Origin: Microglena sp. YARC
Taxonomy: Eukaryota; Chlorophyta; Chlorophyceae; Chlamydomonadales; Chlamydomonadaceae
Assembly: GCA_022414725.1 (NCBI GenBank)
Contig: CM039466.1
Span: 17,756,817-17,820,816, forward strand
Length of the DNA stretch: 64,000 nt
Direction: 5' to 3'
This document shows positions 16,849 through 63,915 of this stretch, piece by piece. The notes beneath the pieces are model-generated. The model ran no database searches. It worked only from the letters and a program-made list of their open reading frames with translations, and had not been told where the DNA came from. Position numbers and translations under genes: made by a program. Within the stretch, counting starts at the first letter, position 1. Each line of letters begins with the position of its first letter.

Positions 16849-16905
16849 TAGGCCCCCACACCTCCCCAGGCTCATCAGGGACAAACAACTTCTTCAAGGC
16901 TTATA
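16849..16905 (-). repeat. Decayed copy of the SAM-carrier stop-codon region
   Basis: Plus-strand CACACCTCCCCAGGCTCATC... ACTTCTTCAAGGC mirrors the real 3' end of exon 6 (ACACCTCCCCGGGCTCCTTG... ACTTCTTGGCGGC) about 120 bp away. It is the 3'-flank version of the exon-edge copying seen throughout this gene. Confidence 0.6.
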
Positions 16906-16969
16906 TTTTCAGCTACCAGCAGCAGCTTCTAGGCAGCAAACTGAGATACAAGATGGGTGTCCTAGGCCC

Positions 16970-17208
16970 TTACACCTCCCCGGGCTCCTTGGGGGCATAG
17001 AACTTCTTGGCGGCCTCCAAGACAGGGAAGAAGACAAATCCTCCCAGAGAGATCCAAATGAGGCGTGGCTGCCAGCCGGACATGAAGGCGGCTGGCCCCT
17101 CCTTCTTCAGAATCTGCATGGTGGCGTCGAATGAGTTCTTGTACAGCCCACTGCTGCCCTGGGTCATCAGTCGGGTCTTCAACACATCCAAGGGGGTGGT
17201 GACGAGGC
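16970..17208 (-). CDS. SAM carrier exon 6 (third signature, stop)
   Basis: Acceptor TTGCAG|GCCTCG at 17208; stop TAA at 16972-16970. It encodes [40 protein letters not shown] and a hydrophilic end [10 protein letters not shown]. Confidence 0.92.
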
Positions 17209-20200
17209 CTGCAACGGAGTTAGTTGGGATACAAAGGAATCAGTTGGGATTGGGGTTGGGGTAAGTGTGTTGGTTGGGTTGTGGGTTGGTTGGGTCATCA
17301 GTCGGGTCTTCAACACATCCAAGGGGGTGGTGACGAGGCCTGCAAAGGAGTAGGTTGGGATACAAAGGAATCAGTTGGGATACAAAGGAATAAGTTGGGA
17401 TGGGGGTTGGGGTATGTGTGTTGGTTGGTTTGTGGGTTGGTTGGGTCATCAATCGGGTCTTCAGCACATCCAAGGGGGTGGTGACGAGGCCTGCAAAAGA
17501 GTAGGTTGGGATTGGGGATGGGGTTGGGATAAGTGTGCTGGTTGGGTTGTGGGTTGGTTGAGTTATTTGTCTTGGTTGGGCAGCACATCCAAGAGGGTGG
17601 TCACGAGGCCTGCAAAGGAGTGGGTTGGGTTTGAGATTAGGGTTGGGAGTGGGAGTGGGATTGGGATAAGTGTGCTGGTTGGGTTGTGGGTTGGTTGAGT
17701 TAGTTGTCTTGGTTGGGCAGCACATCCAAGGGGGTGGTCGCAAGGCCTGCAAAGGAGTAGGTTGGGTTTGAGAATAGGGTTTGGAGTGGGATTGGGGTTG
17801 GGATTGGGGTCAGTGTGCTGGTTGGTTTGTGGGTTGGTGCTGGTTGGGTTGTGGGTTGGGTAGAGGCCTGCAAAGGAGTAGGTTGGGATTGTGGATGGGG
17901 TTAAGATTGAGGTTGGGATTGGGGTTGGGATAAGTGTGCTGATTGGGTTGTGGGTTGGTTGAGCTTGTTGCGTTGGTTGGGTAGAACATTCAAGGGGGTG
18001 GTGACGAGGCCTATAGAGGAATGGGTAGAGCTTGGGGTTGGGAAAAGTGTGCTGGTTGGGTTGTGGGCTTGTTGAGTTAGTTGTGTTGGTTGGGCAGCAC
18101 ATCCAAGGGGCGGTGACGAGGCCTTCCCCGCTGGGTTGTGTTGGTTGGACGGCACATCCAAGGGGGGGGTGACGAGGCATACAAAGGAATGGGTTGGGAT
18201 AAGGCTGAGCGTGTTGGTTGAGTTAGTTGTGTTGGTTGGGCAGCACATCCAAGGGGGGGGGGGGTGATGAGGCCTTCATTTCTGGGTTGTGTTGGTTGGA
18301 CGGCACATCCAAGGGGGGGGTGACGAGGCATACAAAATAATGGGTTGGGATAAGGCTGAGCGTGTTGGTTGAGTTAGTTGTGTTGGTTGGGCAGCACATG
18401 CAAGGGGGGGGGGGGGGGGGGGGGGGGGGGGACGAGGCCTGCAAAGGAGTAGGTTGGGATTGGGATTGGGAGTGAGATAAGGATGAGCGTGCTGGTTGGT
18501 TTGTGGGTTGGTTGAGTTAGTTGTGTTGGTTGCGCAGCACACACTCCCCACACCCCCACGCACCTGTGAAGCCTCCAGCAATGGCTCCGATGACCGAAGT
18601 CTCGTAAGACATCAGCTCCTTCTGATTTGAGTACTCCATGTACTTCACCTTCATCTGCTCGTAGGCCATGAACTCAATCGCATCGAAGGGCAGATCACGC
18701 AAGAGGAAGGCCCCGTAGCCAGCGTACATGCCCTTCACACCCTCCCTCTTCAAAATGCCACTGACACAGTCCCCCAGGCGGGCAAACTCGCGGGTCTGAA
18801 GCCTCTGCTTGATCACCTCAGTGGGCACACGCACCAGGGAGGACACCATGCCTGTGTAAGTGTGAGAGGGGTGAGAGGTGAGAGGGGTGATAAGGGTGAG
18901 AGTGTGTATGTGTACATGTGTATGTGTCAGTAACTTCTGTTTGTCACCTCAGTGGGCACAAGCACCAGGGAGGAAACCATGCCTGTGTGGGTGTGAGCGG
19001 GGATAGTGTGTATGTATACGTGCCTACCTTCTCCAGCAAAGAAGGGTGCGAGGTGAGACTGGGTAGCAAGCCAGTGGAGCTGCCTAGAAGCTGCTGCTTC
19101 TCCAGCAAAGAGGTGTGCAAGGTGAGACGGGGTAGCGAGCCAGTGGAGCTGTCTAGAAGCTGCTGTTCGTAGCGGGAAAGAAAAGCTACAGAATGTGCCT
19201 ACCTTACCAGCAGCTTCTCCAGCAAAGAAGGGTGCGAGGTGAGACAGTCGACCCTCAAGCTCGCCCCCCTTGTCAACCCTCAAGCTAGCCTCCCCCCCCC
19301 ACCCCCCCCCCCCCCCCCCCCCTCCCAACACCCACACCCACCACCACACCCACCCACCGCCCGACTGCTGCCAGATGTACACACCCCACACCCACTACCA
19401 TCACACCCAGTGCTTGGCAGGCTTGTTGACCGAGATAAAGAGGGCGGAGGAGGGGGCAGTACCAACAAGATCTACACAAGTGCACCAATGCACTCGATCA
19501 TCATCTGATACAGACGATATAATACAGATCATCGATAATACAAATAATACAGATCATCTGATACAGACCATCGATGATACAAATAATACATATCATCTGA
19601 TACAGATCATCGATAATACAAATAATACAGATCATCATCTGATACAGATCATCTGATTCAGATCATCATCTGATACAGATCATCTAGTACATATCATCAT
19701 CTGATTCAGATCATCTAATACAGATCATCATCTGATTCAGATGATATAATACAGATGATCTGATGCAGATCATCATCTGATAGATATGATCTAATACAGA
19801 TCATCTGATACAGATGATAGATAATACATAATGCACTGGCGCAGTGTAGCTGACTAAACCTTCAGCTGTAATGCGCCAATGCACTTAATCAAACACACTC
19901 ACACTTCCCATCATCGCAAAACACTACCTAGTTATAACAAGCCTTACCTGCAGCTGCTCCAGCAAAGAGGGGTGCGAGGTGAGACTGGTTTCGACCCACT
20001 CACACCCACCACCACACCCGCCCACCACCCGGCTGCTGCCAGGTGTACACACACCACGCACACTACCACCACACCCGGTGCTTGGCAGGCACGTTGACGG
20101 AGATGAAGAGGGCGGAGGAGGGGGCGGTACCTACATGAGCTACACAAGAACACACTCGCACTTCTCGTCAACCACCCTAGCAACACAAAGCACTGCCTTT

Positions 20201-23200
20201 CCAGAACAAGTGTGTCTACCGTACCTGCAGCTGCCCCAGCAAAGAGGGGTGCGAGGTGAGACTGGTTTCGACCCTCAAGCTCGCCCTCTACCCATTGCTT
20301 GGCAGGCTCGTAGACGGAGATGAAGAGGGCAGAGGCGGGGGCGGTACCAGCAAGGTTTCCCCAGATGCCTGCAAGTGTTTGTTGTGAATAGTTTAAGGTA
20401 CAGTGTAGGTTGTGATACTTCTCATGTACTTATGTTACGTATCTCACAAATCTAGCCAGTACTTGGCAAGCTCATGGATGTAGACAAAGAGGGCAGAGGC
20501 AGGGGCTGTACCAGCAAGGTTTCCCCAGATGCCTGCAAGTGTTCGTTGCGAACAGGTTAGGGTACTGTGTAGGTTGTGATACTTCTCATGTACTTATGCT
20601 ACGTGTGAAATATATCCAGCCAGTGCTTGGCACGCTCATAGATAGAGACAAAAAGGGCAGGGCAGGGGCTGTACCATCAAGGTTTCCCCAGATGCCTGCA
20701 AGTGTTTGTTGTGAACAGGTGAAGGTACTTTGTAGGTTGTGATACTTCGTTTGTCACTTCTCTAATATATATTAGTATCTAGCCACTGCTTGGCAGGCTT
20801 GTATGCTGAGATAAAGAGTGCAGGGGCGGGGGCGGTACCAGCAAGGTTGCCCCAGATGCCTGTGAGTGTTTGTCGTGAACAGGTTGGGTCTAGGGTTAAG
20901 GATTCGGGTTGCCCCAGATGCTTGTGAGTGTTTGTCGTGAACAGGTTGGGTCTAGGGTTAAGGATTCGGGTTGCCCCAGATGCCTGTGAGTGTCTGTCGT
21001 GAACAGGTTGGGTCTAGGGTTAAGGGTTCGGGTTGCCCCAGATGCCTGCAAGCGTTTGTTGTGGACGGGTGCTAAGGTGCTGTCTAGGCTGTGATACTTC
21101 TTATATAACTTGTCTCGTATATCTAGCCAGTGCTTGGCAGGCTTGTAGGCAGAGATAAATAGGGCGGAGGCAAGGGCGGTACCAGCAAGGCTGCCCCAGA
21201 CGCCTGCAAGTGTTTGTTGGGGACAGGTTAGACACACACATACAAATACATATAAACACTTCCCTTATCTATCTATCTACATACACTCCCCACACCACTT
21301 CCCTGTCTAGTCTTCACACACACACTCACACACACCATGTCACTCCCGCTATCTCTCCATGTTTTTATTCTGCACCTGCGTATGCTCTCTTGCCTCTAAC
21401 AGGGTCTACGGTCTTCGAAGCCACCACCACCACCAACCATGGCTTGGGGACACACACACTCACACACACACCCACACACACACAGACATACACACTCACA
21501 CACATACACACACAAACTCACACTGAAACAGACACACATACACTCACACACATACACATATACACACACACTCACATACACACTCAAACAGACACACACA
21601 GACAGACATACATACATACACACACACTGACACACAGACACACACAAACACACTCACACACAGACAGACAGACACACTCAAACACACAGACGCACACATT
21701 CACACAGACAAACTCACACAGACATAAACACACAGGGTGATACCACACCTGCATACAGTCTCTTGCCTTCACCAGAGTTCATGAAGGCCTTGAAGCCACC
21801 TCCCCCAACCATGGCTTGGGGGCACACACTTACACACTCACACATCCACACTCATACATCCACACACAGACATACACACTCACACTCACTTACAGAAATA
21901 CACTGACATACACACACAGGATGATACCACACCTGCGTACAGTCCCTTGCCTCCACCAGAGTCCATGAGGGCCTTGAAACCGCCACCACCAACCATGGCT
22001 TGGAGGCGTGTCTTGATGGTGTCAATAGGGTACAGGGCTGCAGGTGGGTAAGGAGGGACAGGAAATTGTAGATATGCACAGTTATGCAGCACAATTGGGG
22101 AATAAATAACAAATTACCGGTGTATCATTAGGAAACAAGGAGTCGTGATGGCGTCAATGGGGTGAACGGGTGCAGGTGGGTAGAGAGAGAGGAAGTTGTG
22201 ATAATGCAGCACAATTGGGGTTTTGAACAGTATAAAACAACAATTATGGGGGGCATCAATAGGGTACATAAAGTCTTGATGGCGTCAATGGGGTGAACGG
22301 GTGCAAGTGGGTAGAGAGAGAGGAAGTTGTGATAATGCAGCATAATTGGGGTTTTGAACAGTATAAAACAACAATTATGGGGGGCATCAATAGGGTACAT
22401 AAAGTCTTGATGGCGTCAATGGGGTGCAGGGCTGCAGGTGGGTAGGGAGGGACAGGACAGTGCTTATGCAGCACAATTTGCGTCTACAAGAGTCTAAAAC
22501 AACAATTCTGGGGGTATCAACAGGATACAAAGAGTCTTGATGGAGCCAGTAGGGTACAGGGCTGCAGGTGGGTAGGTAGGGACAGGAGGTAAGTGAATTA
22601 ATGGGTGACTCCCTCCCATTGTTTTCGATCCCACACCCCTGATCAGGCAGCACAATTCGAGGCACACATTTGGGGTATCCATGGGGTAAACACACATAAA
22701 TGGGAAGCCTATGGGAAGCCGCCCCCACCAGCCCTGGCCTAGAGGTGTGTCTTGTTGGTGTCAATAGGGTACAGGGCTGCAGGTGGGTTGTAGGGAGGGG
22801 CAGGAAGTTATGGTTATGCACAGTTATGCAGCACAATTGAGGTATAAAATAGTATAAAACAACAATAAATAGGATACAAAGAGTCTTGATGGTGCCAATA
22901 GGGTACAGGGCTGCAGGTGGGTTGTAGGGAGGGGCAGGAAGTTATGGTTATGCACAGTTATGCAGCACAATTGGGGTATAAAACAGTATAAAACAACAAT
23001 TATGGGGGGGTACAAATAGGATACAAAGAGTCTTGATGGTGCCAATAGGGTACAGGGCTGCAGGTGGGTAGGGAGGGACAGAAAAATGATTATGCAGCAC
23101 AATTTGGGTATAAATCAACAACTACAGGGGTATCAACAGGATACAAGGAGTCTTGATGGCGTCAATGGGGTGAAGGGGTGCAGGTGGGTAAAGAGGGACA

Positions 23201-26200
23201 GAAAATTGTGATTATGCAGCACAATTTGGGCATAAAACAGTCTAAATCAACCATTCTGGGTTTCAATAGGGTACAAATTGTATTGATGGCGTCAATGGGG
23301 CGCAGGGCCGCAGGTGGGTAGGGAGGGACAGGACATAGTGATTATACAGCACAATTTTGGTCTACAAGAGTCTAAAACAACAATTGTGGGGGTATCAACA
23401 GGGTACAAAGAGTCTTGATGGCGTCAATGGGGTGCAGGGCTGCAGGTGGGTGGAGAAGAACAGGAAGTTGTGGGTATTCAGCACTGTTGGGGTCTAGAAC
23501 AGTACAACACAACAATTGTGGGGGTATCAACACGGTATACAGAGTCTTGATGGCGATAATGGGTGCAGGGCTTCTGGTTGATAGAGAGGGAAAGGAAAGA
23601 GCAGATAGGGTTGTCTGTGTGTTGTTTTTGTTCTTTGTTTAGTCTGTTTGTTTTGTTTGTTTTGTTTGTGAGTGTATTGTCTGCTTTGTTTATATGTTTG
23701 TTTTGTCTGTCTGTTTGTTTGTTTGTTTCAGTTCAGTTCAGGGGTAAGCCAAGTAGATCAGTTTGGGGGATAGCCACGGGGTAAAAAGAAAGACTTCATG
23801 CTGTGAATGGGGTACAGGTCTGCAGGTGGATAGGGAGGGACAGGAAAGCAGATACATATGTTTGCCTGTTGTTTTTATTCTTTTTTTTGTCTGTTAGTTT
23901 GTTTTCTTTCCTTGTTTTGTTTGTTTGTATTGTTTGTGTATTTTTTGTCTGCTTTGTTTGATTGCTTGTTTTGTCTGTTTGTTTGTTTGATTGCTTGTTT
24001 TGTCTGTTTGTTTGTTTGTTTGATTGCATGTTTCGTCTATTTGTTTGTTTGTTTGTTTGATTGCTTGTTTCGTCTGTTTGTTTGTTTGTTTTGGTTCAGG
24101 GGTTAGCCAATCAGGTCATTTTTGGGGGTAGCCACGGGGTAAAAAAATAGACTTGATACTGTGAATGGTGTACAGGGATGCAGGTTGATAGGGGGGGACA
24201 GGAGAGCATGTACGTTTGTTTGTCTATTTTTGTCTGTTTGTTTGTAAGTTTTGTCTGTTTGATTGTATGCGTTATTTTTTTGTGTGTGTGTGTGTATTTT
24301 CCTGCTTTATTTCTTTGTTTGTTTTGTCTGTTTTGTTTTTATGTTTGTTTTGTCTGTTTTGTTTATATGTTTGTTTTGTCTGTTTTCTTTATATGTTTGT
24401 TTTGTTTGTTTGGTTTATTTGCTTGTTTTGTCTTTTTTGTTTATTGGTTTGTTTGTTATAGTCCACGGGGCCAATTAGGCCAATTTTGGATCTCATGCAC
24501 GGGATGGCTCTTCTGTATATTAAGATGCATGGTGGTGTTGGTGTTGGTGATGTTGGTGTCACTGACGGTGGCCGTAGTGGAGTGTGTGGCGGTGTTGGTG
24601 TTGGTGTTTCGGGGGAATCCATGGGGTGAACAGATACTTGATGCTGTCAATGCCAGCAGCCAGGCTGCCCACCATATTTTGTAATTCGTATTCAAATTCA
24701 AAATACAGTTGTAGGTGACACACACCACCATTCCCCCCCCCACACACACACACTACCACTCACTCACCAGCTTCCACTGAGCAACCGACAGTAGCTCCAG
24801 CAGACAGTTTTCCCGCCACATTTATAAATTTGTATACAAATTCAAAATACAGTCAGAGGTAACACACACCACCATTCCCCCCCTCCCACATTCCCCCCAC
24901 CCCCTCCACACACACACCACCACCACACACTCACTAGCTTCCACTGAGCAACCGGCAGTAGCTCCAGCAGCAAGGTTTCCCGCCACGTACTTCCAAGTGG
25001 GGTGGGTTTTAGCTGAGGGGGGCTTCTTGTCCTCCTTGGCTGAGGCTAGCATGAACATGGGCATGGGGGCAGAGCCTGAGGGGAAGAAGGGTGCAAGCTG
25101 TGTTGAGTTGTGTGGTGCTGAGTTCTGTGTGTGGGTGTGGGTGTTGGTGAGTGGTGGTGGTGGGTTTTTTAGGGGGTTCGATATGAAGGGGGCCTCTTGT
25201 CCTCCTTGGCTGAGGATAGCATGAACAAGGGCATGGGGGCAGAGCCTGAAGGGGAGAAGGGTGCAAGCTGTGTTGAGTTGTGTGGTGCTGGGTTGGGTGT
25301 GTGTGTGTGGGTGAGTGTGAGTGGTAGTGGTGGTGATTTTGTTTTAGTGTGTTGAAGATGAGGGGGGCATCTTGTCCTCCTTGGCTGGGACCAGCATGAA
25401 CATGGGCATGGGGGCAGGGCCTGAAGGGGAGAAGGGTGCACGCTTTGTTGAGTTGAGTTGAGTGGTGCTGAGTTCGGTGCGTGTGTGTGGTTGTGGGTGA
25501 GTGGTGGTGGTGGTGGTGGCATTTTTATTGGGTTGAAGATGAGGGGGGCTTCTTGTCCTCCTTGGCTGCGGCCAGCATGAACATGGGCATGGGGGCAGAG
25601 CCTGAGGGGGAGAAGGATGCACGCTTTATTATGTCATGTTGTCCGGTGTCATGTCATGTTGTTCAGTGTTGTGTTGCATGGAGGGTTGGGTTTAGCAACA
25701 AGGTGATAGGAGGAACTGCATGTTGATGCTACAGTTTAACAGTAGTATAGAACAGGGGGATGCGGGCATAGCCTGGGGAGTAGAAGGGTGCATGTTATGA
25801 TGTGTTGTGTTGTCTCGTGTCAAATCGTGTTATGTCGTGTCATGTCATGCCATGCTATGCTATGTAATGTAATGTAGTGTAATGTAATGTAACATAACGT
25901 AGTGTAATGTAACGTAACGTAATGTAATGTAATGACTTGTCATGTTGTGTTGTGCCGTGTTATGCTGTGTTGTGTTTTACTATATTGTGTTGAGATATGT
26001 TACTACACAGCTTAACAGTAGTACAGAACAGGGGAATGGGGGCAGAACCTGGGGAGTATAAGGGTGCATGTTATGCTGTGTTGTGTTGTGTCATGTCATG
26101 TAATGCTGTGTTGTGTCATGTCATGTCATGTTATGCTGTGTTGTGTCATGTCATGTTATGTTATGCTGTGTTGTGTTGTGTCATGTCATGTTATGCTGTG

Positions 26201-29489: not shown

Positions 29490-29520
29490 CACTGGGGGGG
29501 GGGGGGGGGGGGGGGGGGGG
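29490..29520. repeat. Poly-G tract
   Basis: An uninterrupted run of about 28 G sits between two CGTGCGTGTT-containing stretches (29400-29535). Similar CACGCAC palindromes recur at 31430-31610. The length may be inaccurate, as homopolymers are error-prone. Confidence 0.7.
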
Positions 29521-35784: not shown

Positions 35785-35831
<47 letters not shown>

Positions 35832-45296: not shown

Positions 45297-46055
45297 CGGA
45301 ATCCTTTTTACATTTTTTCAATTCAAACCAATGATGAGAATGGCTTGATTCCCTTTACATCTGCCTTACATAAGCAGGATCAGATTCGTTCTATAGCACA
45401 GTTTAGAATGGGTTCCCATTGGCTGAACACAGAAAGAATGAGGGTGGTGGATAGAGCACACATCCCTCGTTCAATGAGACACTGTCAAATGTGTGGGTTC
45501 CAAAAACCTGAGGATGAAATGCATATGTTTGAGTGCCCTTTTTATAATGATATTCGCCTCCGCTACCAGAAGCTGTTTACAGATATTTATAGGCATGTCC
45601 ATGAGGATACCGACTTAACCGTATGGAATGTGGAATTCTGCGATTCCACATTCAGAACCTTTATGAATGGAAATGGCACTAAGACTTTCTGGAGCAACCT
45701 AGCCGACTATCTTTCTACTTGTAGAAGAGCAAGACAGGAAGCCCTGGACTGCTTAGTGGCACCGAAATTTATTATCCCTTTTTTCTTTTTCTTTTCTTCT
45801 TGTGACTTCTCATTTGTTAGCTTCTTACCTCCGTCACTGTAAGTGGTTGAGATCTGGGTCCGGCTCTAGGGGGTTTAATACCTACGCCACCAAAACGGTG
45901 GTTGGGAGCTTGGTTTGTTTGTCCTCGACACACCCCTGATGTAATGGGTTTTTTTGCTTTGTGGGTGCTTTTTCTTTTTGTTTAAAGCACAGAGTCTCAT
46001 ACACCCTCGCGGTGTCAAGTAGACTTTAACATGTAATGTAAATGTAAATGTAAAC
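45297..46055 (+). mobile_element. 5'-truncated LINE: RT C-terminal end and 3' tail
   Basis: The frame open from 45297 to 45842 reads RMGSHWLNTERMR then CQMCGFQKPEDEMHMFECPF and YNDIRLRYQKLF. The CxxC...HxxxxC knuckle with a following NDIR is the usual C-terminus of a non-LTR retrotransposon ORF2. The 3' region runs to a tail of ATGTAA/TGTAAA repeats (46031-46055). The reverse transcriptase core and endonuclease are missing because of 5' truncation. Confidence 0.75.
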
Positions 46056-51124: not shown

Positions 51125-52015
51125 CTTGAACGGTGGTGGTCCGATGCCTGGGTGCAGGGGGAGACAAGTGATTCAAAAGATTACCTTTGAGATACAATTT
51201 GAGATATCATCATCATCATCATCATCATAATATATTGTATGCATATAAATAAGTACAAATATTGAACGGTGGTGGTCCGATGCCTGGGTGCAGGGGAAGA
51301 CAAGTGATTCAAAAGATTACCTTTGAGATACAATTTGAGATATCACCATCATCATCATCATAATAATATATTGTATACATATAAATAAGTACAAATATTG
51401 AACGGTGGTGGTCCGATGCCTGGGTGCAGGGGAAGACAAGTGATTCAAAAGATTACCTTTGAGATACAATTTGAGATATCATCATCATCATCGTCATCAT
51501 AATAATAATATATTGTATGCATATAAATAAGTACAAATATTGAACGGTGGTGGTCCGATGCCTGGGTGCAGGGGAAGACAAGTGATTCAAAAGATTACCT
51601 TTGAGATACGATTTGAGATATCATCATCATCATCATCATCATCATAATTATATATTGTATACATATAAATAAGTACAAATATTGAACGGTGGTGGTCCGA
51701 TGCCTGGGTGCAGGGGAAGACAAATGTATGAAAGTTTAAATTTGAATTATACATACACAATATAAATATTGAACGGTGGTGGTCCGATGCCTGTTTGCAG
51801 GTGAAGACACATGTTTGAAAGTTTAACTTTGGAGTAAATATACACAATATAAATATCGAATATAAAGTTTAACGCGCATATAAATATTGAATATAAAGTT
51901 TAACTTTGAATAAAATACACAGATACAAATATTGAATAGTGTTGGTCCGGTGCCTAGGTACAGGTAAAGACATTGTTTTGGAATTTTAACCTTCGAATAA
52001 ATATAAATAATGTGA
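51125..52015. repeat. About 145-bp tandem repeat, six to seven units
   Basis: Each unit has GAACGGTGGTGGTCCGATGC CTGGGTGCAGG, GATTCAAAAGATTACCTTTG, a variable ATC microsatellite and ATATAAATAAGTACAAATAT. Units decay toward the right; a last worn unit is at 53365-53450. The minus strand at 50912-51121 shows a short protein-like frame of unknown value. Confidence 0.85.
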
Positions 52016-53462: not shown

Positions 53463-54135
53463 CCTGTCTCACATCAATAGTTCCACCCTAGTCCTCAGTC
53501 GCCATCGCGCACGGAGCCTAATTATAATTGCTGCGGGAGATAGCGGCCTCACAAGCTTGGGGAGGAGGGGCGTGTGTGTGTGTGTGTGTGTATGTGTGTG
53601 TGTGTGTGTGTGTGTATGTGTGTGCCCGTGTGTGCCCGTGTGTGTGTGTGTGGTGGTGGTGGTGGTGGTGGGTAGGGCACAAAAACATACGAGCATAGGG
53701 TCTAACCAAAACTTCCTACCCTCCCCCCCCCCTTGCCCCACATCATTAGTTCCCTCCTAGTCCTCAGCAGCCATCGCACACCTAGCCCAATTATAATTGC
53801 TGGGGGAGATACTGTTCTCACAAGCTTGTGACGTGGGGAGTGTGTGTGTGTGGTGTGGTGGGTGGAGGGGGGGAGGAAGTTTTTGTTGAGGACATATCGG
53901 TCTCACATGCTGGGTGTGTGGGTGTGTGTGGGGGGGGGGGGCATGCTTGTGTGTGCGCATGTGTGGTGGGGGGGGTGGGGGTAGGGCAAATTACAAAAAA
54001 TGTCCGAGCGTAGGGTCTAACAAAAAACTCCTGACCCCCCCCTTGCCTCACCTCAGTAGTTTCCTCCTAATCTAAAGTTGCTCCCTGACACTGAGCCTAA
54101 ATCGTAATTCCTGGAGGAGATACTGGCCGCACAAG
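53463..54135 (-). repeat. Three worn copies of the terminal exon of the membrane-protein gene
   Basis: Units at about 53463-53560, 53705-53830 and 54030-54130 repeat the exon end at 54268 (on the plus strand CCTCACATCAATAGTTCC-like, then CTCACAAGCTTG), each followed by a TG microsatellite. Stops and frameshifts make them non-coding. Confidence 0.78.
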
Positions 54136-54158: not shown

Positions 54159-54231
<73 letters not shown>

Positions 54232-54240: not shown

Positions 54241-54267
54241 AAAAAAACTACCCCCCCACCCCATGCC

Positions 54268-54360
54268 TCACATCAATAGTTCCTTCCTAATCTTAAGTCG
54301 CTCTCGTACACTGAGACGCACGCTCTCTTCAAAGCAGCGGTAAGAGTTCTGGTAGCACAC
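54268..54360 (-). CDS. Membrane-protein gene, terminal exon
   Basis: Acceptor CTACAG|GTGTGC at 54360; stop TGA at 54270-54268. It encodes VCYQNSYRCFEESVRLSVRE RLKIRKELLM, phase 0 with the previous exon. Confidence 0.68.
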   Translation of the reverse strand: MCYQNSYRCFEESVRLSVRERLKIRKELLM

Positions 54361-57300
54361 CTGTAGTACGGCAAGATACAAGAGGCAGGGCTTAGGGCTT
54401 ATGGCAGAGACATGGGGTAGGGTTCTGTAAGCACATTTGAAGTGTGGCTAATTAAGCAGCGGTACGATTTCTGATAGCACATGTGCAGTACGGCAAGATA
54501 CAAGAGGCAGGGCTTAGGGCTTATGGCAGAGACATGGGGTAGGGTTCTGTAAGCACATTTGAAGTGTGGCTAATTAAGCAGCGGTACGATTTCTGATAGC
54601 ACATGTGCAGTACGGCAAGATACAAGTGGCAGGGCTTAGGGCTTATGGCAGAGACATGGGGTAGGGTTCTGTAAACACATTTGAAGTGTGGTTAACAAAG
54701 CAGCGGTACGATTTCTGATAGCACATGTGCAGTACGGCAAGATACAAGTGGCAGGGCTTTGGGATTAGGGCAGAGGCAAGGGGTAGGGTTCTGAAAGCAA
54801 ATTTGAAGTGTGACGAACAAAGCAGAGGTACGAGTTCTGGTAGCACATGCGCAGTACGACAAGATACTAGTGGCAGGGCTTAGGGATTAGGGCAGAGGCA
54901 AGGGGTAGGGTGCTGTAAGCACATTTGAAGTGTGACGGAAAAACACACACCCACTGACACACCCACCCACACCCACATGCCTTACGCACATGCACACCCA
55001 CTGACACATGCCTTACACACACGCACACACACTGACACACCCACCCACACCCACATGCCTTACACACACGCACACACACTGACACACCCACATGCCTTAC
55101 ACACACGCACACCCCCACCCCCACCCACATGCCTTACACACACGCACACACACTGAAACACCCACCCACACCCACATGCCTTACACACACACACACACTG
55201 ACACACCCACCCACACCCACATGCCTTACACACACACACAGACACTGTCACACCCACCCACCCACACCCACATGCCTTACACACACGCACACACACTGAC
55301 CCACCCACCCACACCCACATGCCTTAAACACACACACACACACACACTGACACACCCACCCACACCCACATGCCTTACACACACGCACACACACTGACAC
55401 ACCCACCCACACCCACATGCCTTACACACACACACACTGACACACCCACCCACACCACATGCTTTACCAGTATGGAACCAAGGAGAGAGAAGATGATCCT
55501 GAGCACATAGAGTAGACCACTCCGAGACAGACGGTTACTGAAATCTGAGCTGTTGCCGCGCTCTACTTACACACACGCACACCCACTGACACACCCACGT
55601 GCCTTACACACACACACTTACAGACCAACCAATCCAACCACGCACACATGCCTCACCAGTATGAAACCGAGGAGAGAAAAGAGGATCCTGAGCACATAGA
55701 GTAGACCACTTCGAGACTGAGGGTTACTGAAATCTGATCTGTTGCCGAGCTCTACTTACACACACGCACACCCACTGACACACCCACATGCCTTACACAC
55801 ACACACTTACATACCAACCAATCCTACCACACACACAAGCCTCACCAGTATGAAACCGAGGAGAGAAAAGAGGATCCTGAGCACATAGAGCAGTCCACTC
55901 TGAGACAGACGGTTACTGAAATCTGAGCTGTATGAGAGCTCAAACCAACGAGGGTTAAGGTTGTGTGCGTAAGTCAGCTCCTGGTCGAAAGGAGTCAGCA
56001 GGGCAGAGATAAAGAAGGCCGCCAAGTACAGTGCTACCTGCATGTGTGGGCAGCATGTGTATCAGCGTGTGTGTGTGTGTGTGTGTTAAGGACACTATCG
56101 TGGGTTCTGCTTGTGTGCGTAAGTCAGCACCTGGCTGAAAGGAGTCAACAGGGCAGAGAAGGCCGCCAAGTAAATTGTTACCTGTTCTTGTGGGCATGTG
56201 TGTCAGCATGTGTGTGTATAGGACATTAGCATGGGTTCTGCTTGTGTTTCTAAGTCAGCTCCTGGTCGAAAGGAGTCAGCAGGGTAGAGACAAAGAAGGC
56301 CGCCAAGTACAGTGCTACCTGTTTGTGTGGGCAGGTGTGTCTGCGTGTGTGTGTGTTTGTGTGTGTGTGCGTGTATAGGACACCACTTAAAGACAGGGAA
56401 GGTGACTAACACAGAGCTGTTGGTAAGCTCTAACTAGCGTGGCTTCTGGTTGTGTGTGTAAGTAAGCTCTTGATCGAAAGGCCACCAAGTACAGTGCGAC
56501 CAGTTTGTGTGTGTGTGTGTGCGTGTGTGTGTGTGCGTGTGTGTGTTTGTGTGTGTGTGTGTGCGTGTATGTGTGTGTGTGTGTGTGCGTGTGTATAGGA
56601 CACCATCGTGGGTTCTGCTTGTGTGTGTAAGTCAGCTCCTGGCTGAAAGGAGTCAGCAGGGCAGAGACAATGAAGGCCAACAAGTTAATTGCTACCTGTA
56701 TGTGTGTCAACGTTTGTGTGTGTGTGTGTATAGGACACCATCGTGGGTTCTGCTTGTGTGCGTAAGTCAGCTCCTGGCTGAAAGGAGTCAGCAGGGCAGA
56801 GACAATGAAGGCCACCAAGTACACTGCTACCTGTTTGTGTGGGCAGGTGTGTCAGCATGTGTGTGTACGTATAGGACACAACTTAAAGACAGGGGAGGTG
56901 ACTAAACCCTTTTTTGCGAGGAGCTGACTTGAGGAATACAACCAGAGCTGTCGGTGAATACTGAATCGATGAACTTAAAGTACAATATCCGCACAGCGTC
57001 TGATCTCGCTCTTTGCAAACCTGTATTGGGTTGGTGAACTTGAAGTACAATACATAACCAGTGTCAAATCACATTCTGAGAAAACATGTTTTGGTTCGGT
57101 AACCTGGAAACCCTTTTTTTTTAATCCTTGGTGGTTTGATGAACATGCAACACAACATATCCCCCCCCCCCCCCCCCTCCCCCACCACACACACACAAAC
57201 CACACACACGAGTATCTAATCTCATGATGTGCAAACCTGTATTGGGTTGATGACCTCGAAAGCCTTTTGTTTAACCCTTAGTGGTTTGATGAACATGCAG

Positions 57301-60300
57301 CACAACACCTGCCCCCCCCCCCCCCCCCCCACCTTCACCCCACACACAAAATATCTAATCTCGTCATATGCAAACCTGTATCGGGTCGATGAACTTGAAG
57401 TACAACATCCCCCCCCCCCCCCCCCCCCAACACACACACACACACAAGTATCTAATCTCATTATGTGCAAACCTGTATTGGTTTGATGAACATGCAGCAC
57501 AACATCTTCCCCCCTCCCCCCCACCTTCACCTCCCACGCACAAATATCCAATCTCGTCATGTGCAAACCTTCACCTCCCACGCACATGTTGCGGGGTCAA
57601 ACACCAGCTTCACCTCCCACGCACATGTTGTGGGGTCAAACACCAGCTTCACCTCCCACGCACATGTTGTGGGGTCAAACACCAGCTTCACCTCCCACGC
57701 ACATGTTGTGGGGTCAAACACCAGCTTCACCTCCCACGCACATGTTGTGGGGTCAAACACCAGCTTCACCTCCCACGCACATGTTGTGGGGTCAAACACC
57801 AGCTTCACCTCCCACGCACATGTTGTGGGGTCAAACACCACCTTCACCTCCCACGCACATGTTGTGGGGTCAAACACCAGCTTCACCTCCCACGCACATG
57901 TTGTGGGGTCAAACACCAGCTTCACCTCCCACGCACATGTTGTGGGGTCAAACACCAGCTTCACCTCCCACGCACATGTTGTGGGGTCAAACACCAGCTT
58001 CACCTCCCACGCACATGTTGTGGGGTCAAAAACCAGCTTCACCTCCCACGCACATGTTGTGGGGTCAAACACCAGCTTCACCTCCCACGCACATGTTGTG
58101 GGGTCAAACACCAGCTTCACCTCCCACGCACATGTTGTGGGGTCAAACACCAGCTTCACCTCCCACGCACATGTTGTGGGGTCAAACACCACCTTCACCT
58201 CCCACACACAAATATCCAATCTCGTCATGTGCAAACCTGTATCGGGTCAATGATCTTGAAGTACAAGTGCGGGGGCTCCCAGTCGTGTCTCCTGTCTTGT
58301 GCTAACCTGCAGTCAGTGGAAGTAGCAGTGGTGGTGTTTGTGGTAAGGGGTAGTGGCGTTTGTGAGGGAATGTTTTGGTGAAGGATGTTTGCGATGCTGT
58401 CTGTACTTCGATTGAGCTTTCCGTTGAATGAATCGTCCACCATCTCTTGACACACAGGTCATCAGGATCGTAGGGTACGTCTTTCTGTGGTGGGAGGTTA
58501 GGGTGGTTTTGGAGGTGAAGTACAAGTGAGGGGGCTCCTAGTCATGTTGCCTGAGTCGTGCTAACCTGCAGCCAGTGGAAGTAGCAGTGGTGGTGTTTGT
58601 GGTGCGGGGTAGTGGTGTTTGTGGTGCAGGGTAGTGGTGTTTGTGGTGCGGGGTAGTGGTGTTTGTGGTGCGGGGTAGTGGTGTTTGTGGTGCGGGGTAG
58701 TGTTGTTAGTGGTAAGGGGTTGTGGTGTTTGTGGAGAGGGGTAGTGGTGTTTGTGGTGTGGGGTAGCCATGTCAGTGGTGAGGGGTAGTGGTGTTTGTGG
58801 AGAGGGGTAGTGGTGTTAGTGGTGCAGGGTAGTGGCGTTTGTGAGGGAATGTTTTGGTGAAGGATGTTTGCGATGCTGTCTGTACTTCGATTCAGCTTTC
58901 CGTTGAATGTGTTGTCTACGATCTCATCGGCCCACGATCTCGATGAATCGCCCACGATCTCGATGAATCGCCCACGAGCTCGATGAATCGCCCACGATCT
59001 CGATGAATCGCCCACGAGCTCGATGAATCGCCCACGAGCTCGATGAATCGCCCACGATCTCGATGAATCGCCCATGAGCTGTCCGTTGAATGAATCACCC
59101 ACGATCTCTTGACACACAGGTCATCAGGATCGTGGGGTACGTCTTTCTGTGGTGGGAGGTTAGGGTGGTTTTGGAGGTGAAGTACAAGTAAGGGGGCTCC
59201 CAGTCATGTCCAGGGAACGGCAACTAATATTAGTGTTTGAAAAACTAATATTAAGTAATATTATTTTAGTGTCACAATAATATTAGTTTTTCAAATGAAT
59301 TCGAAATTCTGGTGAGACGGCTCGCCCGACGAATATTAGATACTATTAGATAATTGTATTTATTCACTAAAATTATATAACATAGCCGACCCCTAGACAT
59401 GCCTCATGTCCCGTGCTAACCTACAGCCTGTGGAAGTAACAGCAATGTTGTGTGCGTGTTGTTGATGCTGGGCATGTTGTTGATGCTGTTTTTATTGTTG
59501 CTGAGAATTTTGATGCAGCAGCGATGTTGTTGATGCTGGGCATGTTGGTGTTGGTGTTCTTGATGCTGGACGTGTTGTTGTTGTTGTTGTTGTTGTTGTT
59601 ATTATTGATGCTGTTGTGGCTAACGTTTGTGCATTTGTTGTTGATGCTGTTGTTGTTATTGCTGATGATGATGGTGAAGCAGCAGCGATGTTGTTGATGC
59701 TGGGCATGTTGTTGTTGTTGTTGTTGTTGTTGTGGTTGACGTATGCGTATTTGTTGTTGATGCTGTTGTTGTTATTGCTGCTGATGATGTTGAAGCAGCA
59801 GCGATGTTGTTGCCGATGGTGATTTTGGGGTTGGTGTTGTTGGTGTTGGTGTTGGTGATGTTGTATACGATGTTGCTGTACATGATGGTTATGTTAGTGT
59901 GGGTGATGTTGGCATTGATGCTGACCTTGATGCAGTTGTTGCTGTTAATGTTGTTGATGATAGCGATGTTGGTGTTGGTGATGTTGCTGCTTATGCTGCT
60001 GCTTTTGTGGTTGGTCATGATGCTGCTGATGTTGAAGCAGCAGCAATGTTGTATATGATGGTGGTGTTGGTGATGGTGGTGATGGTGGTGTAATGCTGAC
60101 GTTGCTGTTGCTGTTGTAGCTGTATTGGAGAGTGATGAGAGTGCTGGGAGTGTGCTGGGAGTGTGATGAGAGTGACGTGGGTGTGATGGGATTGATGGGA
60201 GAGTGATGAGTCTGATGAGAGTGTGATGAGAGTGTGATGAGAGTGCTATGTGCGTGATGTGAGTGTGATGGGAGAGTAATCGGAGTGTGATGGGAATCTG

Positions 60301-62800
60301 ATGGGAGTGTGATGGGATTGATGGGAGAGAGATGATATTGAGGGGAGTGTGAAAAGAGTGAGTGTGATTAAAGTGCTGGGAGTGTGATGAGAGTTCTGGG
60401 AGTGTGCTGGGAGTGCAAAGATAGTGATGGGAGTGTGATGAGAGTGATGGGCTACTTGGCGTCACACACTTACCTAACTACAGATCCCACAACAGCCAGA
60501 GGGATGAGTGTGTTGTAGAATTGGGTCATCTGGAAGGCGATGGGGCAGTAGTACCTGAAGACATGGAGGAACCAAGATAAGAGTGATCATAGTTTATATA
60601 TGTATATATAAAAATAATAAACAGTGGTCTTGAGTTTGGACAAAGCCATCCAGGATTTTCCATATTTTGTTATGTACTTATTTTCCTCTAATGTAACGTG
60701 TTGATATAATAATACGGCGATCTTTGTTTGCTCCAGCACTTGTGAGCTACTTCATCATGAACTAATGACGGTAAGAAGTAGTACCTGAAGACATGGAGGA
60801 ACCAAGATAAGAGTGGCCTTAGGTTATACATGTAGATATAGGATATTAGTTATATATTTATGGTTTGGAGGGGGGTCTTAGCTCCTTAGCGCTAATAGCG
60901 CTATATGTGCTTATTAGCGTTAAAATAAATCCCGTTATTAGCGCTAACTAGAGGTGAAGAGAAGAGAAATAGCACGTCGAGGTACGTAGCCCGTCGTACG
61001 TACCCTACGCAGCCCGTCGTACATACCCTACGTAGACCCTCGTACGTTCCCAACGTAGCCAGTCGTACGTACCCTACGCAGGTCTACGTAGCCTTACGAC
61101 GCCCCACGCACGCAGCCCACGCAGCCCTACATACGTACCCTACGCAGCCCGTCGTACGCAGCCTGACGTAGCCCTACGTATATACCCTACGTGGGCAAAA
61201 TAATATACAGTGGTCTAGAGTTTGGACAAAGCAACCCAGGATTTTTCCATATTATGTTATGTACTTATATACTTCCAATGTAACGTGTTGATATAATAAT
61301 AATACGGCGATCTTTGTTTGCTCCAGCACTTGTGAGCTACTTTATGGCACCACCATTCGAATTGAATCCTCCATGTCGCTGGTTTGTGTCGGGAGACCCA
61401 CCTCCTGGGGTGAAAGTCCTTTCACAACTTAAACAAAAAAATCATGAAGTAATGACGGTAAGATCCCAATGCACAATTGCCCCAAAGTTCAGGAGGGAAT
61501 GGCAACACTCTCCTACACAGTGGCACTTTTTCTGGGTTGTTTGGGCTAAGTTTGGCTGAATTAGTTGTTACTATTAGGGCTAATTTAGCTAATAGCTCTA
61601 ATAGGGCTAATTTTGTGCGACATAAGCCGTAACCTCCGAAGCCTCCTAGATATATTGGATATTAGTTATATATAGGATATTAGTTATATATATAGGATGC
61701 TAGTTATACATATTACTGTATAGGATGTCAGTTATATATAGGATATTAGTTATATATATAGGATGCTAGTTATATATATTACTGTATAGGATGTCAGTTA
61801 TATATAGGATATTAGTTATATATATAGGATGTTAGTTATATATATATATAGGATGCTAGTTATATATATTACTGTATAGGATGTCAGTTATATATAGGAT
61901 ATAATAGGATATATAGGACATTATATGATATTGTATGTACATGGTAACTTTGGCCTATTCAGACTGCCGGCATCATATGAGATCACATACAATCTCCTCC
62001 ACACCCGCCACCCACATTCACCACCACCAATACTCACATGAGAAATGTATTCTCGGGATGTGTCAAATTTTACCAGAAAATCAAGTAGATATACGTTAAC
62101 ATACCCCCCCCCCCCCCCCCCCCTTCCACAACACACACCTCCTCCTCCACCCTCACCCATCCCCTTCATAAAAGCTCACAATCTTTCCCCCCACACCCCC
62201 TCCCCACACCCTCACCATCCATCACCTTAATAAAAGCACACAATCTCTCCCCCCCCCCATCCCCCACCTCCTCCACACACACACACCCTTCATAAAAGCA
62301 CACAATCTCTCTCCCCCCCCCCCCGCCCCCCCCCCCCCCCACACACACACACACACCATTCATCAAAACGCACAATCTACCCCCCCCCCCCCCCCCTCTC
62401 CCCTCCTCCTCAGTCCCATCCCCCCCCCCCCACACACACACACACCATTCATCAAAACGCACAATCCCCCCCCCCCACACCCCCCTCCTCCAAACACAGA
62501 CCCCCCCCCCCCCCCAACACACACACACACACACCCAACACACACACACACCATTCATCAAAACGCACAATCTACGCCCCACCTCCCCCCACCTCCTCAA
62601 CCCACACCAACCCACCCCCTTCATCAAAACACACAATCTCTCCCTTCCACCCAATCCTCCCACACTCACATGATACATTTCTTCTCGCCATGCGTCCTTT
62701 TATACCCGAAGGTCATGTAGAAGTTGAGAACAGAGAAACCACCCACAAGTCCTTGTGAGAAGAGGCTGAGCACTGAGAATATGAATGGCCACGTTGTCTT
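54268..62800 (-). CDS. Unrecognised multi-pass membrane protein, 3' part (five exons)
   Basis: Exons in order on the minus strand: about 62800-62670, 60554-60474, 58306-58237, 56037-55846 and 54360-54268. The junctions are GT/AG and the phases join without a stop. Joined reading gives WPFIFSVLSLFSQGLVGGFS with NFYMTF then KRTHGEKK; YYCPIAFQMTQFYNTLIPLA; LAQDRRHDWEPPHLYFKIID; ALYLAAFFISALLTPFDQEL and LLYVLRILFSLLGFIL; and a basic tail RLSVRERLKIRKELLM. At least three or four hydrophobic helices are visible, ending in a short cytoplasm-like basic tail. I do not recognise the family. The 5' exons lie beyond the right edge. Every exon is flanked by worn tandem copies of its edges, so exon choice at 62.7-63.9 kb is open. 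Confidence 0.6.
54361..54930 (-). repeat. About 120-bp tandem copies of the terminal-exon acceptor region
   Basis: Four to five units repeat GCAGCGGTACGATTTCTGAT AGCACATGTGCAGTACGGCA AGATACAAG and the following GTGGCAGGGCTTAGGGCTTA. The unit joins the acceptor and first 30 bases of the exon to intron sequence. In the copies the acceptor AG context is changed (CACATGTG for CAGGTGTG). Confidence 0.82.
54940..55460. repeat. About 46-bp CA-rich minisatellite
   Basis: About eleven units of CACTGACACACCCACCCACA CCCACATGCCTTACACAC. Confidence 0.88.
55470..55760 (-). repeat. Two copies of the penultimate exon's 3' half
   Basis: Copies at about 55470-55560 and 55660-55750 repeat the FSNRLSQSGLLYVLRILFSL coding and donor (plus CACCAGTATG(A/G)AACC), downstream of the real exon. 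Confidence 0.82.
55846..56037 (-). CDS. Membrane-protein gene, penultimate exon
   Basis: Acceptor ATGCAG|GTAGCA at 56037; donor ATACTG|GTGAGG after 55846. The 64 codons hold two hydrophobic segments (ALYLAAFFISALL and LLYVLRILFSLLGFIL) separated by TYAHNLNPRWFELSYSSD. Confidence 0.7.
56080..56900 (-). repeat. Five copies of the penultimate exon's 5' half
   Basis: Copies at about 56110-56185, 56230-56325, 56445-56500, 56615-56698 and 56745-56833 repeat the acceptor and VALYLxAFxxSALLTPFxQE coding, followed by TGTGTGCGTG microsatellite. The last two are open through TYAHKQNPRW and could splice in frame at the acceptor, but lack a donor. Confidence 0.85.
56960..57560 (-). repeat. Copies of the YFKxIDPIQ exon 3' edge
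   Basis: About six copies of the exon end and donor (plus CAAACCTGTATTGGGT(T/C)GAT GA) at about 57015, 57160, 57232, 57371, 57467 and 57560 alternate with C-runs (57166-57185, 57313-57332, 57411-57429). Confidence 0.8.
57567..58205. repeat. 39-bp minisatellite, about 16 units
   Basis: The unit is CTTCACCTCCCACGCACATG TTGTGGGGTCAAACACCAG. With 39 divisible by 3 and few stop words, 13-residue repeats are open in all three plus frames and one minus frame (LHLPRTCCGVKHQ; EVKLVFDPTTCAW). No frame is favoured. Confidence 0.94.
58237..58306 (-). CDS. Membrane-protein gene, short exon
   Basis: Acceptor CTGCAG|GTTAGC at 58306; donor ATACAG|GTTTGC after 58237. It encodes LAQDRRHDWEPPHLYFKIID PIQ, entering with one base and leaving in phase 0. 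Of three copies only this one is intact: the copy at 58510-58567 has an in-frame stop and the copy at 59180-59435 is split by a MITE. Confidence 0.6.
58307..59450 (-). repeat. Worn copies of the short exon with 21-bp and 20-bp minisatellites
   Basis: Two copies of the exon 5' part plus a KDVPYDPDDLCVK-like segment lie at 58440-58567 and 59090-59440. GTAGTGGTGTTTGTGGTGCG G units (about twelve) fill 58575-58850, and CCCACGATCTCGATGAATCG units (about eight) fill 58930-59080. The KDVPYDPDD segment could be a further skipped or alternative exon. Confidence 0.78.
59211..59395. mobile_element. hAT-type MITE inside a dead exon copy
   Basis: Starts CAGGGAACGGC and ends GCCGACCCCTA. Flanks gtcatgtc (59203-59210) and gacatgcc (59396-59403) each differ by one base from gtcatgcc, which the intact exon copies imply was the target. 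It is homologous to 31178-31368, with the AAAAACTAATATTA hairpin. Confidence 0.85.
59455..60470. repeat. TTG/CTG trinucleotide and GAGTGTGATG arrays
   Basis: GTTGTTGATGCTG-type words fill 59455-60110, and GAGTGTGATGGGAGTGATG-type words fill 60110-60455. The Leu/Met/Val-rich and Thr/Asn/Ile-rich frames are artefacts. Array words GATGCAGCAGCGATGTTG recur every 150 bp or so. Confidence 0.85.
60474..60554 (-). CDS. Membrane-protein gene, exon with YYCPIAFQMTQFYN
   Basis: Acceptor CTTCAG|GTACTA at 60554; donor GTTAG|GTAAGT after 60474. The 81 nt encode YYCPIAFQMTQFYNTLIPLA VVGSVV(R). The second half is hydrophobic. A worn copy of the acceptor edge is at 60780-60815. Confidence 0.68.
   Translation of the reverse strand, partial: VLLPHRLPDDPILQHTHPSGCCGICS
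60605..60775 (+). repeat. Direct repeat, empty-site copy
   Basis: AACAGTGGTCTTGAGTTTGG through ACGGCGATCTTTGTTTGCTC to GAGCTACTTCATCATGAACT matches 61195-61460, which carries an insertion. Confidence 0.85.
60870..61195. repeat. CGTACGTACCCTACGCAGCC tandem repeats
   Basis: About ten degenerate 22-26 bp units of ACGTACCCTACGCAGCCCGT CGT lie between the two direct repeats, preceded by TTAGCGCTAATAGCGCTA palindromes (60896-60950). No coding frame is seen. Confidence 0.8.
61195..61465 (+). repeat. Direct repeat, filled-site copy
   Basis: This is the same as 60605-60775 except for about 98 bp inserted after GAGCTACTT. That insert is the SINE-like element. Confidence 0.85.
61345..61443 (+). mobile_element. 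SINE-like element, copy 4 (fullest)
   Basis: The insert runs from about TGGCACCACCATTCGAATTG through GGAGACCCACCTCCTGGGGT, the GTGAAAGTCCTTTCAC hairpin, to ACTTAAACAAAAAAA. Its absence from the sister repeat proves insertion. The A-rich 3' end suggests retroposition; no clear target duplication is seen. Confidence 0.82.
61640..61925. repeat. AT-rich tandem repeat
   Basis: Units of AGGATATTAGTTATATATAT and AGGATGCTAGTTATATATAT TACTGTATAGGATGTCAGTT repeat about four times. Confidence 0.9.
62040..62660 (-). repeat. Short worn exon-edge copies with C- and CA-runs
   Basis: Copies of the donor edge (plus CATGAGAAATGTATTCTCGG at 62038) and a TTCATAAAAGCACACAATCT unit (about seven times, 62160-62640) alternate with C-runs and CACACA. 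The Gly-rich minus-strand frame here is an artefact. Confidence 0.75.
62670..62800 (-). CDS. Membrane-protein gene, FSVLNFYMTF exon (copy nearest the next exon)
   Basis: Donor ATCAT|GTGAGT after 62670. The upstream limit is uncertain: TTCTCAG|TGCTCA near 62769 is a possible acceptor, or the exon may extend to include WPFIF (about 62800). It reads SLFSQGLVGGFSVLNFYMTF and YKRTHGEKK. Phase 2 at its end is completed by the 60554 exon to Met. Confidence 0.5.
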
Positions 62801-63239
62801 TACTCTCCCTCCCCCCCCCCCCCCCCCCACACACACATCACACACCTGCTCGCCCCTTCACACACACACACACACACAGTCTAATACACACCCACCATCT
62901 GGCAGCATTAATACCCACATGAAAAAATTATTCTCGCCATGCGTCCTATTGTACCAGAAGGTCATGTAGAAAGCAATCCCCCACCGCCGTACATAAACAC
63001 TCTCCCCACCTACACAAACACAAAAGATCCCTCACCCAACCCCATCCACAACCCAATACTCACACGAGGAATTTCCTCTTGTCGTGCGTCCTTCACACAA
63101 ACACACACATACACAGACACAAACACCTCACCCAACACACCCTGCAACTATTGCCAGGCACACACACACACACATAAAGACTAATACACACCCATCATCT
63201 GCCAGCACCAACACTCACATGAGAAATTTCTTCTCGCCA

Positions 63240-63915
63240 TGCGTCCTTTTATACCAGAAGGTCATGAAGACTACGTTAACATACTCCCCCCCCCCCCCCC
63301 CCCCCCCTATAAAAACGCACATCTCTCCCTTCCACCCCCTCCTCTCACATGAGAAATTTCTTCTCGCCATGCCTCCTTCTGTAAAAGAAGGTCATGTAGA
63401 AGTTAAGTACAGAGAAACCACCGGCGAGTCCTTGTGAGGAGAGGCTGAGTACTGAGAAGATGAATGGCCACGTTGTCTTTACCCCCACCCCCCCTCCTCC
63501 TCCTCCCCCCTTCACACACACATACATAAAGTCTAATACACACCCACCATCTGCCACCTCCCACACTCACATGAGAAATTTCTTCTCGCCATGTGTCCTT
63601 TTATACCAGAAGGTCATGTAGAAGTTAAGAACAGAGAAACCACTGACGAGGCCTTGTGTGAAGAGACTGAATATTGAGAAGATGAATGACTACGGTGTCT
63701 TTACCCCCTCCCCTCCCCCCTTCACACACACACACACACACATACAGACAAATACACACCCACCATCTGTCACCAGCACCACTTACATGAGAAATTTCTT
63801 CTCGCCATGCGTCCTTTTATACCAGAAGGTCATGTAGAAGTTGAGTACAGAGAAGACACCGGCGAGTCCTTGTGAGGAGAGGCTGAGTACTGAGAATATG
63901 AATGGCTACGTTGCA
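63240..63915 (-). repeat. Three further near-full copies of the FSVLNFYMTF exon
   Basis: Copies at about 63352-63485 (open, WPFIFSVLSLSSQGLAGGFS... RRRHGEKKFL), 63570-63700 and 63788-63915 each keep a GT donor (GTGAGA, GTGAGT, GTAAGT) in the same phase. Partial copies are at about 62915-62975, 63060-63095 and 63215-63275. Each is preceded (minus strand) by a G-run. From the TTCTCAG acceptor the exon is 103 nt, so including two would shift the frame. Confidence 0.8.

Follow-up and report, generated by a model that had tools for sequence, protein, structure and literature searches.

The locus and its genes

The window, by which we mean the whole stretch of 64,000 nts analysed here (C5:17756817-17820816), comes from the green alga Microglena sp. 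YARC and carries a SAM carrier gene, a vasculin-like gene and a membrane-protein gene. The assembly that was searched comprises 568,105,699 bases in 2390 contigs. The G+C content of the window is near 0.5 in most 2-kb segments, which recalls the 49.1% of Dunaliella salina (PMC5658486), and an Rfam search over its whole length returned nothing reaching the gathering score.

The SAM carrier lies on the minus strand, with six exons at 28855-29077, 24935-25075, 21933-22037, 20225-20368, 18564-18851 and 16970-17208. Exon 1 contains the start codon and part of the transit peptide, its end being set at the donor site, while exon 6 contains the stop codon. Joined at the exon-proximal splice sites, the exons encode a protein of 379 aa. 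Among the 120 of 1330 matches listed, the closest named ones are from chlamydomonad algae, the top-scoring one is a transcriptome protein with 62% identity at 98% query coverage, and the highest identity is 70% over 79% of the query. The spliced protein was aligned with six relatives (four named green algae and two transcriptome proteins, one of the six being without the N-terminal part). The alignment contains no repeated blocks and, outside a gappy N-terminus, insertions of at most about one residue, which supports the six exons as real. Viral contigs searched for relatives of the SAM-carrier locus yielded none.

The vasculin-like gene, on the plus strand, comprises an internal exon at 34127-34674 (open frame; its phase relative to the following exon was read by hand), a long exon of 1344 nts at 37339-38682, open in frame 0, and a last exon with the stop codon at 44276-44455. 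Its label, taken from the preliminary description, does correspond to a Pfam match (Vasculin), albeit a weak one of 21.4 bits, under the cut-off of 27. The third gene, on the minus strand, gave no Pfam match and no homologues at an E-value of 1e-4. Its exons at 60474-60554, 58237-58306, 55846-56037 (the penultimate) and 54268-54360 (the last, with the stop codon) were defined from open frames and from phases read by hand.

Other features of the window lie outside these genes. A direct repeat of about 2.5 kb pairs 1-2549 with 8676-11026 at 89% identity and is followed by a weaker one pairing 2787-4227 with 11097-12165; near it, an open frame at 12393-13316 looks gag-like by eye, and the repeated segments are perhaps a duplicated retroelement region. 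The open frame at 45297-45842, for which no Pfam match was found, presumably resembles the end of a non-LTR retrotransposon protein. Homopolymer runs of 45 C (35787-35831), 28 G (18404-18431) and 27 G (29494-29520) are also present in the window.

Tandem copies of exon edges

Copies of exon edges were sought with two kinds of query. The exon query consisted of 60 nts of pure exon sequence per edge, whereas the junction query, applied to one exon more, consisted of 30 intron and 30 exon bases, and its matches had to cross the junction. For both, the threshold was set above the best match in the reversed and reverse-complemented neighbouring region. Both searches covered the neighbouring intron or flank only, so that the side of the copies is fixed by construction in the window; the direction rule was tested without this restriction in other loci. 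The starts of the query exons were 1-2 bases off for SAM-carrier exons 1 and 4 and for the last vasculin-like exon (44275 for 44276).

In the three genes, the junction queries detected 86 same-strand copies beside 20 of the 26 exon edges, two of the 86 being barely at the threshold of 15. By edge type, there were 60 copies at 11 of 12 acceptors, 19 at 6 of 10 donors and 7 at all three stop edges, and none at the single start. The exon queries gave 71 copies at 16 of 24 edges. The preliminary description, which had claimed that exon edges are copied in tandem with their orientation kept in all three genes, is thereby borne out, and its "many exon edges" is justified, but not every edge is affected. 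The six edges without a junction-crossing copy are the SAM-carrier start, the donors of its exons 1 and 5, both sides of the vasculin-like exon 34127-34674 and the donor of the membrane-protein exon 60474-60554.

In the SAM carrier, where all arrays are on the minus strand, most of intron 1 is occupied by an array in which eight copies of the exon-2 acceptor edge are spaced by satellite (25076-28510; junction query), and a single copy of the exon-2 donor edge is found at 24769-24820 (both queries). The largest array, at 22141-24205, holds 13 junction-crossing copies of the exon-3 acceptor edge, with units of 131-134 bp near the exon and outer ones in a TTTG-type satellite. The exon query returned 14 matches there, one of them probably spurious, and about fourteen copies had been described. 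Two copies of the exon-3 donor edge (21376-21808) were detected by the exon query, one of them also by the junction query. Exon 4 has seven copies of its acceptor edge (20477-21230; units of 164 and 62 bp; both queries), and its donor edge has four by the exon query or three by the junction query (19028-19997), a count that leaves out a fifth, weak match at 18865-18888. The exon-5 acceptor edge has one copy (18926-19002; both queries) and the exon-6 acceptor edge nine (17291-18460; units of 113-151 bp; both queries), close to the ten or so first noted. One copy of the stop-codon edge lies at 16858-16894 (both queries). The SAM-carrier introns consist mostly of edge units and satellite. In addition, about four 55-bp units with an acceptor-like TTCTGTCCTACAG at 14523-14737 might form an edge array that belongs to an unannotated gene.

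Similarly, on the plus strand, the long vasculin-like exon has five copies of its acceptor edge at 35809-37260, the number first reported, in a CAACA-type satellite with a unit of about 331 bp. Its donor edge has seven copies (40309-42610; junction query), which comprise the last few exon bases and the intron start. The last exon has four acceptor-edge copies (43509-44176; both queries) and, at its stop-codon edge, three copies by the junction query or four by the exon query (44456-44940).

In the membrane-protein gene, again on the minus strand, the exon at 60474-60554 has one acceptor-junction copy near 60814. The exon at 58237-58306 has two acceptor-edge copies (58595-59442) and five donor-edge copies, one at the threshold (56990-57505), all from the junction query. 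The penultimate exon has five acceptor-edge copies (56130-56860; both queries), as previously stated, and two donor-edge copies with a unit of 189 bp (55468-55716). The last exon has four clear acceptor-edge copies and a fifth at the threshold, with a unit of 122 bp (54454-54950), and its stop-codon edge has three copies (53469-54095; both queries); the copying of stop edges 3′ of genes is therefore seen in all three genes. Units of 216 bp at 63344-63936, on the minus strand and outside the 26 edges counted, resemble donor-edge copies of a putative upstream membrane-protein exon. The spacers between copies, said earlier to have turned into satellites, are indeed often satellite-like.

The copies are nearly confined to exon edges. 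When exon tiles were compared with the whole window, same-strand local copies were limited to tiles starting within about 105 nts of an edge, with the exception of one low-complexity tile. Complex exon 45-mers had a same-strand copy within 6.5 kb in 40 of 72 cases near edges, against 8 of 92 deeper in the exons, the opposite-strand figures being 0 and 3. The same-strand share of complex 45-mers was 0.86 (SAM carrier), 0.87 and 0.41 in introns and 0.12, 0.13 and 0.35 in intergenic DNA, while the opposite-strand share ranged from 0 to 0.13 across all classes. A self-BLAST of the window gave 329 direct versus 13 inverted pairs. In the window genes, array units of at least 60 bp span 62 to 331 bp, with a median of 131, and the median in 20 arbitrary stretches of the genome is 125.5 bp. 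One array outside the three genes, at 51126-51860, has units of 136-142 bp that are about 95% alike and of genic-array size, with no known exon edge.

Locality, divergence and splice sites of the copies

The copies carry splice sites, as they would if mobile introns or transposons had brought exon pieces with them in introner-like insertions. When one 161-bp unit from the exon-4 array was searched against the DNA of the whole genome (very common words skipped), it matched six places, all in the home array. The 26 junction queries, compared with 44 other loci (295 kb), gave 14 matches of 22-39 bases, several of which fall within satellite, and exon-edge arrays were not found. Introners are near-identical elements dispersed at many unrelated places, and neither the one unit searched genome-wide nor the 26 junctions searched in the 44 loci behave in this way; a dispersed origin of the copies was rejected on these grounds. 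In addition, the copies share one orientation and lie on a constant side of the edge, neither of which would be required of insertions, and the chance that mobile elements account for them is virtually negligible.

The age structure of the arrays is less regular. On the whole, likeness to the real edge declines with distance from the exon (weighted rho -0.30, permutation P 0.011), with negative values in 7 of 11 arrays and an absent or reversed gradient in the other four. The ageing of copies away from the exon thus holds as a weak overall trend, whereas a uniform outward gradient was rejected. In 5 of 11 arrays, copies further apart in rank are significantly less similar (P<0.05), and the rank correlation is negative in two. 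Taken together, the proximity trend and the rank-separation pattern suggest that arrays grew partly outward from the exon and partly internally.

The decoy splice sites that the copies had been said to carry are largely there: both bases of the splice dinucleotide are intact in 40 of 53 acceptor copies and 8 of 9 donor copies, in a scoring where two arrays (8 copies) were read one base off, as CA for AG, and one probably spurious match was included. Retention at the two splice bases of acceptor copies is 0.92 and 0.81, compared with 0.90 in the exon flank and 0.81 in the intron flank. Purging of the decoy sites was also considered and left no sign, the splice bases decaying about as the flanks do. 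The retention of AG or GT in many copies could suggest that selection keeps them as splicing enhancers, as decoys that tune splicing or as alternative exons. However, the retention about equals that of the flanks, the outer copies are degenerate and set in satellite, and a paralogue and other genes are without such copies, as described below. AG is also missing from the four clear copies at the last membrane exon. A function of this kind is therefore very improbable.

At that last membrane exon (54268-54950), the real acceptor has AG and the four clear 122-bp copies have another sequence. Either the copies lost AG before they were amplified or the real site gained it, and because all four clear copies are without AG, the array seems to have grown without a functional site.

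Edge copies in other genes of the genome

Further loci were taken from profile searches for two families. The mitochondrial-carrier profile gave 106 matches, 41 of which are held by the 13 loci taken, and the proteasome profile gave 23 matches, from which 8 loci were taken; the carrier loci were chosen partly for several closely spaced matches, which favours short introns. Edge copies were found at 14 of these 21 loci, namely 8 of 13 carrier loci and 6 of 8 in the proteasome family, where three of the positive loci are represented by one tile each. They were absent at 5 carrier and 2 proteasome loci. The preliminary description had proposed a genome-wide process, and its recurrence in two families stands, albeit not in every gene.

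The direction of copying was assessed by cutting the matched exons into 30-mers and seeking copies on both sides. In the carriers, copies were found in 18 of 40 exon segments, a stop-codon-bearing decoy at locus L029 being left out. In the 5′ third of carrier exons, 53 of 215 tiles were copied upstream and none downstream; in the middle third, 14 upstream and 12 downstream of 202; in the 3′ third, 3 upstream and 42 downstream of 195. The proteasome exons gave 9 upstream and 0 downstream of 96 tiles in the 5′ third, none of 90 in the middle third, and 0 upstream and 6 downstream of 86 in the 3′ third. With both families pooled, the 5′ third has 62 upstream and 0 downstream copies and the 3′ third 48 downstream and 3 upstream, and opposite-strand copies were seen for 1 of 884 tiles. 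The rule that acceptor copies lie upstream and donor copies downstream, originally drawn from the window, accordingly holds in these loci.

Repeats are associated with long gaps between matched exons. In the carrier loci, gap length correlates with the share of local repeats (Spearman 0.68, P 1.4e-4, n=26 gaps), the mean share being 0.11 in 15 gaps under 1 kb and 0.44 in 11 gaps over 1 kb; the test used 26 of 28 gaps, two under 65 bp having been dropped, gaps may contain unmatched exons, and the L029 gap begins at the decoy.

Individual loci illustrate the variation. The paralogues L025 and L026 are 84-91% identical in matched exon DNA and differ in copy number, with three copies versus one at the exon-1 3′ edge, two versus one at the exon-3 5′ edge, and ten upstream matches versus none at the exon-1 5′ edge. 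At L040, the donor edge of the exon recurs downstream at least five times. At L033, a decoy acceptor is identical to the putative real one at every base between about -14 and +115, and the choice of site can therefore not be explained by local sequence alone. The L029 decoy exon copy (1307-1445 in transcript orientation) scores as a mitochondrial-carrier exon. At L032 (2270-3120), a minisatellite of about 30 units of 27 bp begins at a carrier exon 3′ edge, as a very short-unit form of the pattern. L003 and L004 encode mitochondrial carriers in a single open frame (376 and 430 aa); L003 has no notable copies of coding tiles, and the repeats of L004 lie solely 3′ of the stop codon.

Local direct repetition extends beyond the loci chosen. 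In 20 arbitrary 10-kb stretches, genic or otherwise, 4212 of 8864 complex 45-mers (0.48) had a same-strand copy nearby, against 568 with an opposite-strand one, and this excess indicates a genome in which local direct repeats are commonplace. Runs of N occur in 6 of the 20 stretches, i.e., the assembly has gaps, and falsely repeated or misjoined reads might be suspected of producing arrays. The window, however, contains no N bases, most copies are 7-47% divergent from the real edge region (one copy is identical across its 49 exon bases), and the pattern was found again at the 14 further loci. Hence we give an assembly artefact next to no credence.

Origin of the edge arrays

We interpret the edge arrays as exon-boundary minisatellites, or "mirages", that arose by local tandem duplication over exon edges and were tolerated since splicing takes the exon-proximal site, a reading to which we assign a probability of roughly 0.78. 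Each event would be a local tandem duplication, some 60-330 bp long, that includes part of an exon and part of the adjoining intron. As long as the spliceosome still joins the copy attached to the remainder of the exon, the message would be unchanged; duplications that span an edge would hence pass selection, while most of those internal to an exon would not. The duplicated edge would thereafter evolve as intron, and the array would lengthen as the unit next to the exon and units within the array duplicated again. Copies towards the outer end would decay and the spacers between them turn into simple satellites. With many junctions so affected, this would be a main route of growth for long introns and some 3′ flanks in this alga. 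A choice among matching acceptors of the kind met at L033 would be made by position, for example through exon definition. From the sequence, the exon-proximal splice site is probably the one in use, the duplications may be neutral, and slippage or unequal exchange is the likely molecular cause.

A stronger proposal is that duplication is aimed at exon-intron junctions, for instance through DNA breaks coupled to transcription or splicing or through template switching, beyond the mere tolerance of random events. Of 40 tandem arrays with units of at least 45 bp, 34 include an exon edge: 16 of the 18 counted in the three genes of the window and 18 of the 22 at the carrier loci. Were units to fall at random on introns equal in length to the gaps at array-free loci, a share of 0.38-0.50 would be expected, against which the observed count has a P of about 4e-6 or less. 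With ancestral introns of 150-200 bp, on the other hand, the expected share is 0.80-0.90 and the excess vanishes; moreover, several of the arrays counted are pieces of one array. The window has 18 arrays in genes versus 5 between genes, a contrast that speaks for aiming and that a duplication rate equal everywhere would not account for on its own. Against aiming, arrays outside genes have similar unit lengths, the arbitrary stretches are also rich in local direct repeats, and copying extends to stop-codon edges, where there is no splice junction. Aimed duplication is thus unlikely, though it deserves more weight than the other alternatives. Similarly doubtful is a broader picture in which junctions are hot spots for the tandem re-copying of transcribed DNA, exons push their old edges into introns, and decoys matching over more than 100 bases are ignored because the choice is made by position. 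The original suggestion that introns grow by junction duplication is therefore kept in so far as local tandem duplicates of edges are concerned, and is less probable as regards aiming at junctions.

Relation to known systems

The pattern had been presented as not previously described in this form, which does not hold. Tandem repeats across exon-intron boundaries are in print for the lancelet globin and Adh3 genes, where they were named "mirages", and troponin C and, less perfectly, PGBD5 are named as similar (PMC3087553; PMC3902484). There, the units are 150-160 bp in BflGb6, 157 bp in BflGb9 and 10-72 bp in Adh3, RT-PCR suggests undisturbed splicing, and somatic instability is reported (PMC3087553; PMC3902484). 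The algal arrays resemble the lancelet ones in their direct tandem units, which cover an acceptor or a donor junction next to a single authentic boundary, in their several copies, in unit lengths of comparable order and in the presence of AG or GT in many, not all, copies. In the window, likewise, units span the boundary at both acceptors and donors, and AG or GT is often kept. In contrast to the few genes named for the lancelet, the alga has copies at most edges of three neighbouring genes and at two thirds of the further loci, its introns are largely made of arrays, and its stop-codon edges are copied too.

Boundary duplication has also been linked to the birth of introns. In the potato RdRp gene, a tandem duplication across an intron-exon boundary can found a new intron (PMC4974935), and exonic duplication can supply repeated splice sites and create an intron position (PMC2891723). 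A new intron and an exon piece arise in the potato case, whereas in the alga the message would keep its form and an existing intron lengthens. The second case shares with the alga the supply of repeated splice sites and differs in yielding a new intron position instead of the growth of an old one. The Rogers model, in which a duplication makes a new intron in coding sequence, does not describe the algal units, which contain existing junctions; the spliced protein of the SAM carrier, the one gene of the three for which this was checked, has no repeated block. Ordinary minisatellites are comparable in unit length, and tandem arrays of this size are also present beyond the three genes; the genic arrays counted differ from them in that most include an exon edge. 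No green-algal report of such arrays was found in the literature searched, outside which most subscription journals lie, and what is new within it, as far as searched, is the lineage and the scale.

Significance

Boundary minisatellites of the lancelet type are real and recurrent in a green alga, where they form much of the long introns examined. Long introns are usually attributed to transposon insertion. Here, the genome appears to lengthen its introns largely via tandem duplication over exon edges. The arrays call for caution in gene prediction, as decoy exon copies such as the one at L029, which matches a protein profile, can mislead. They also offer many natural experiments on how the spliceosome selects among near-identical sites, and material for the published proposal that boundary arrays may act as seeds of new introns.
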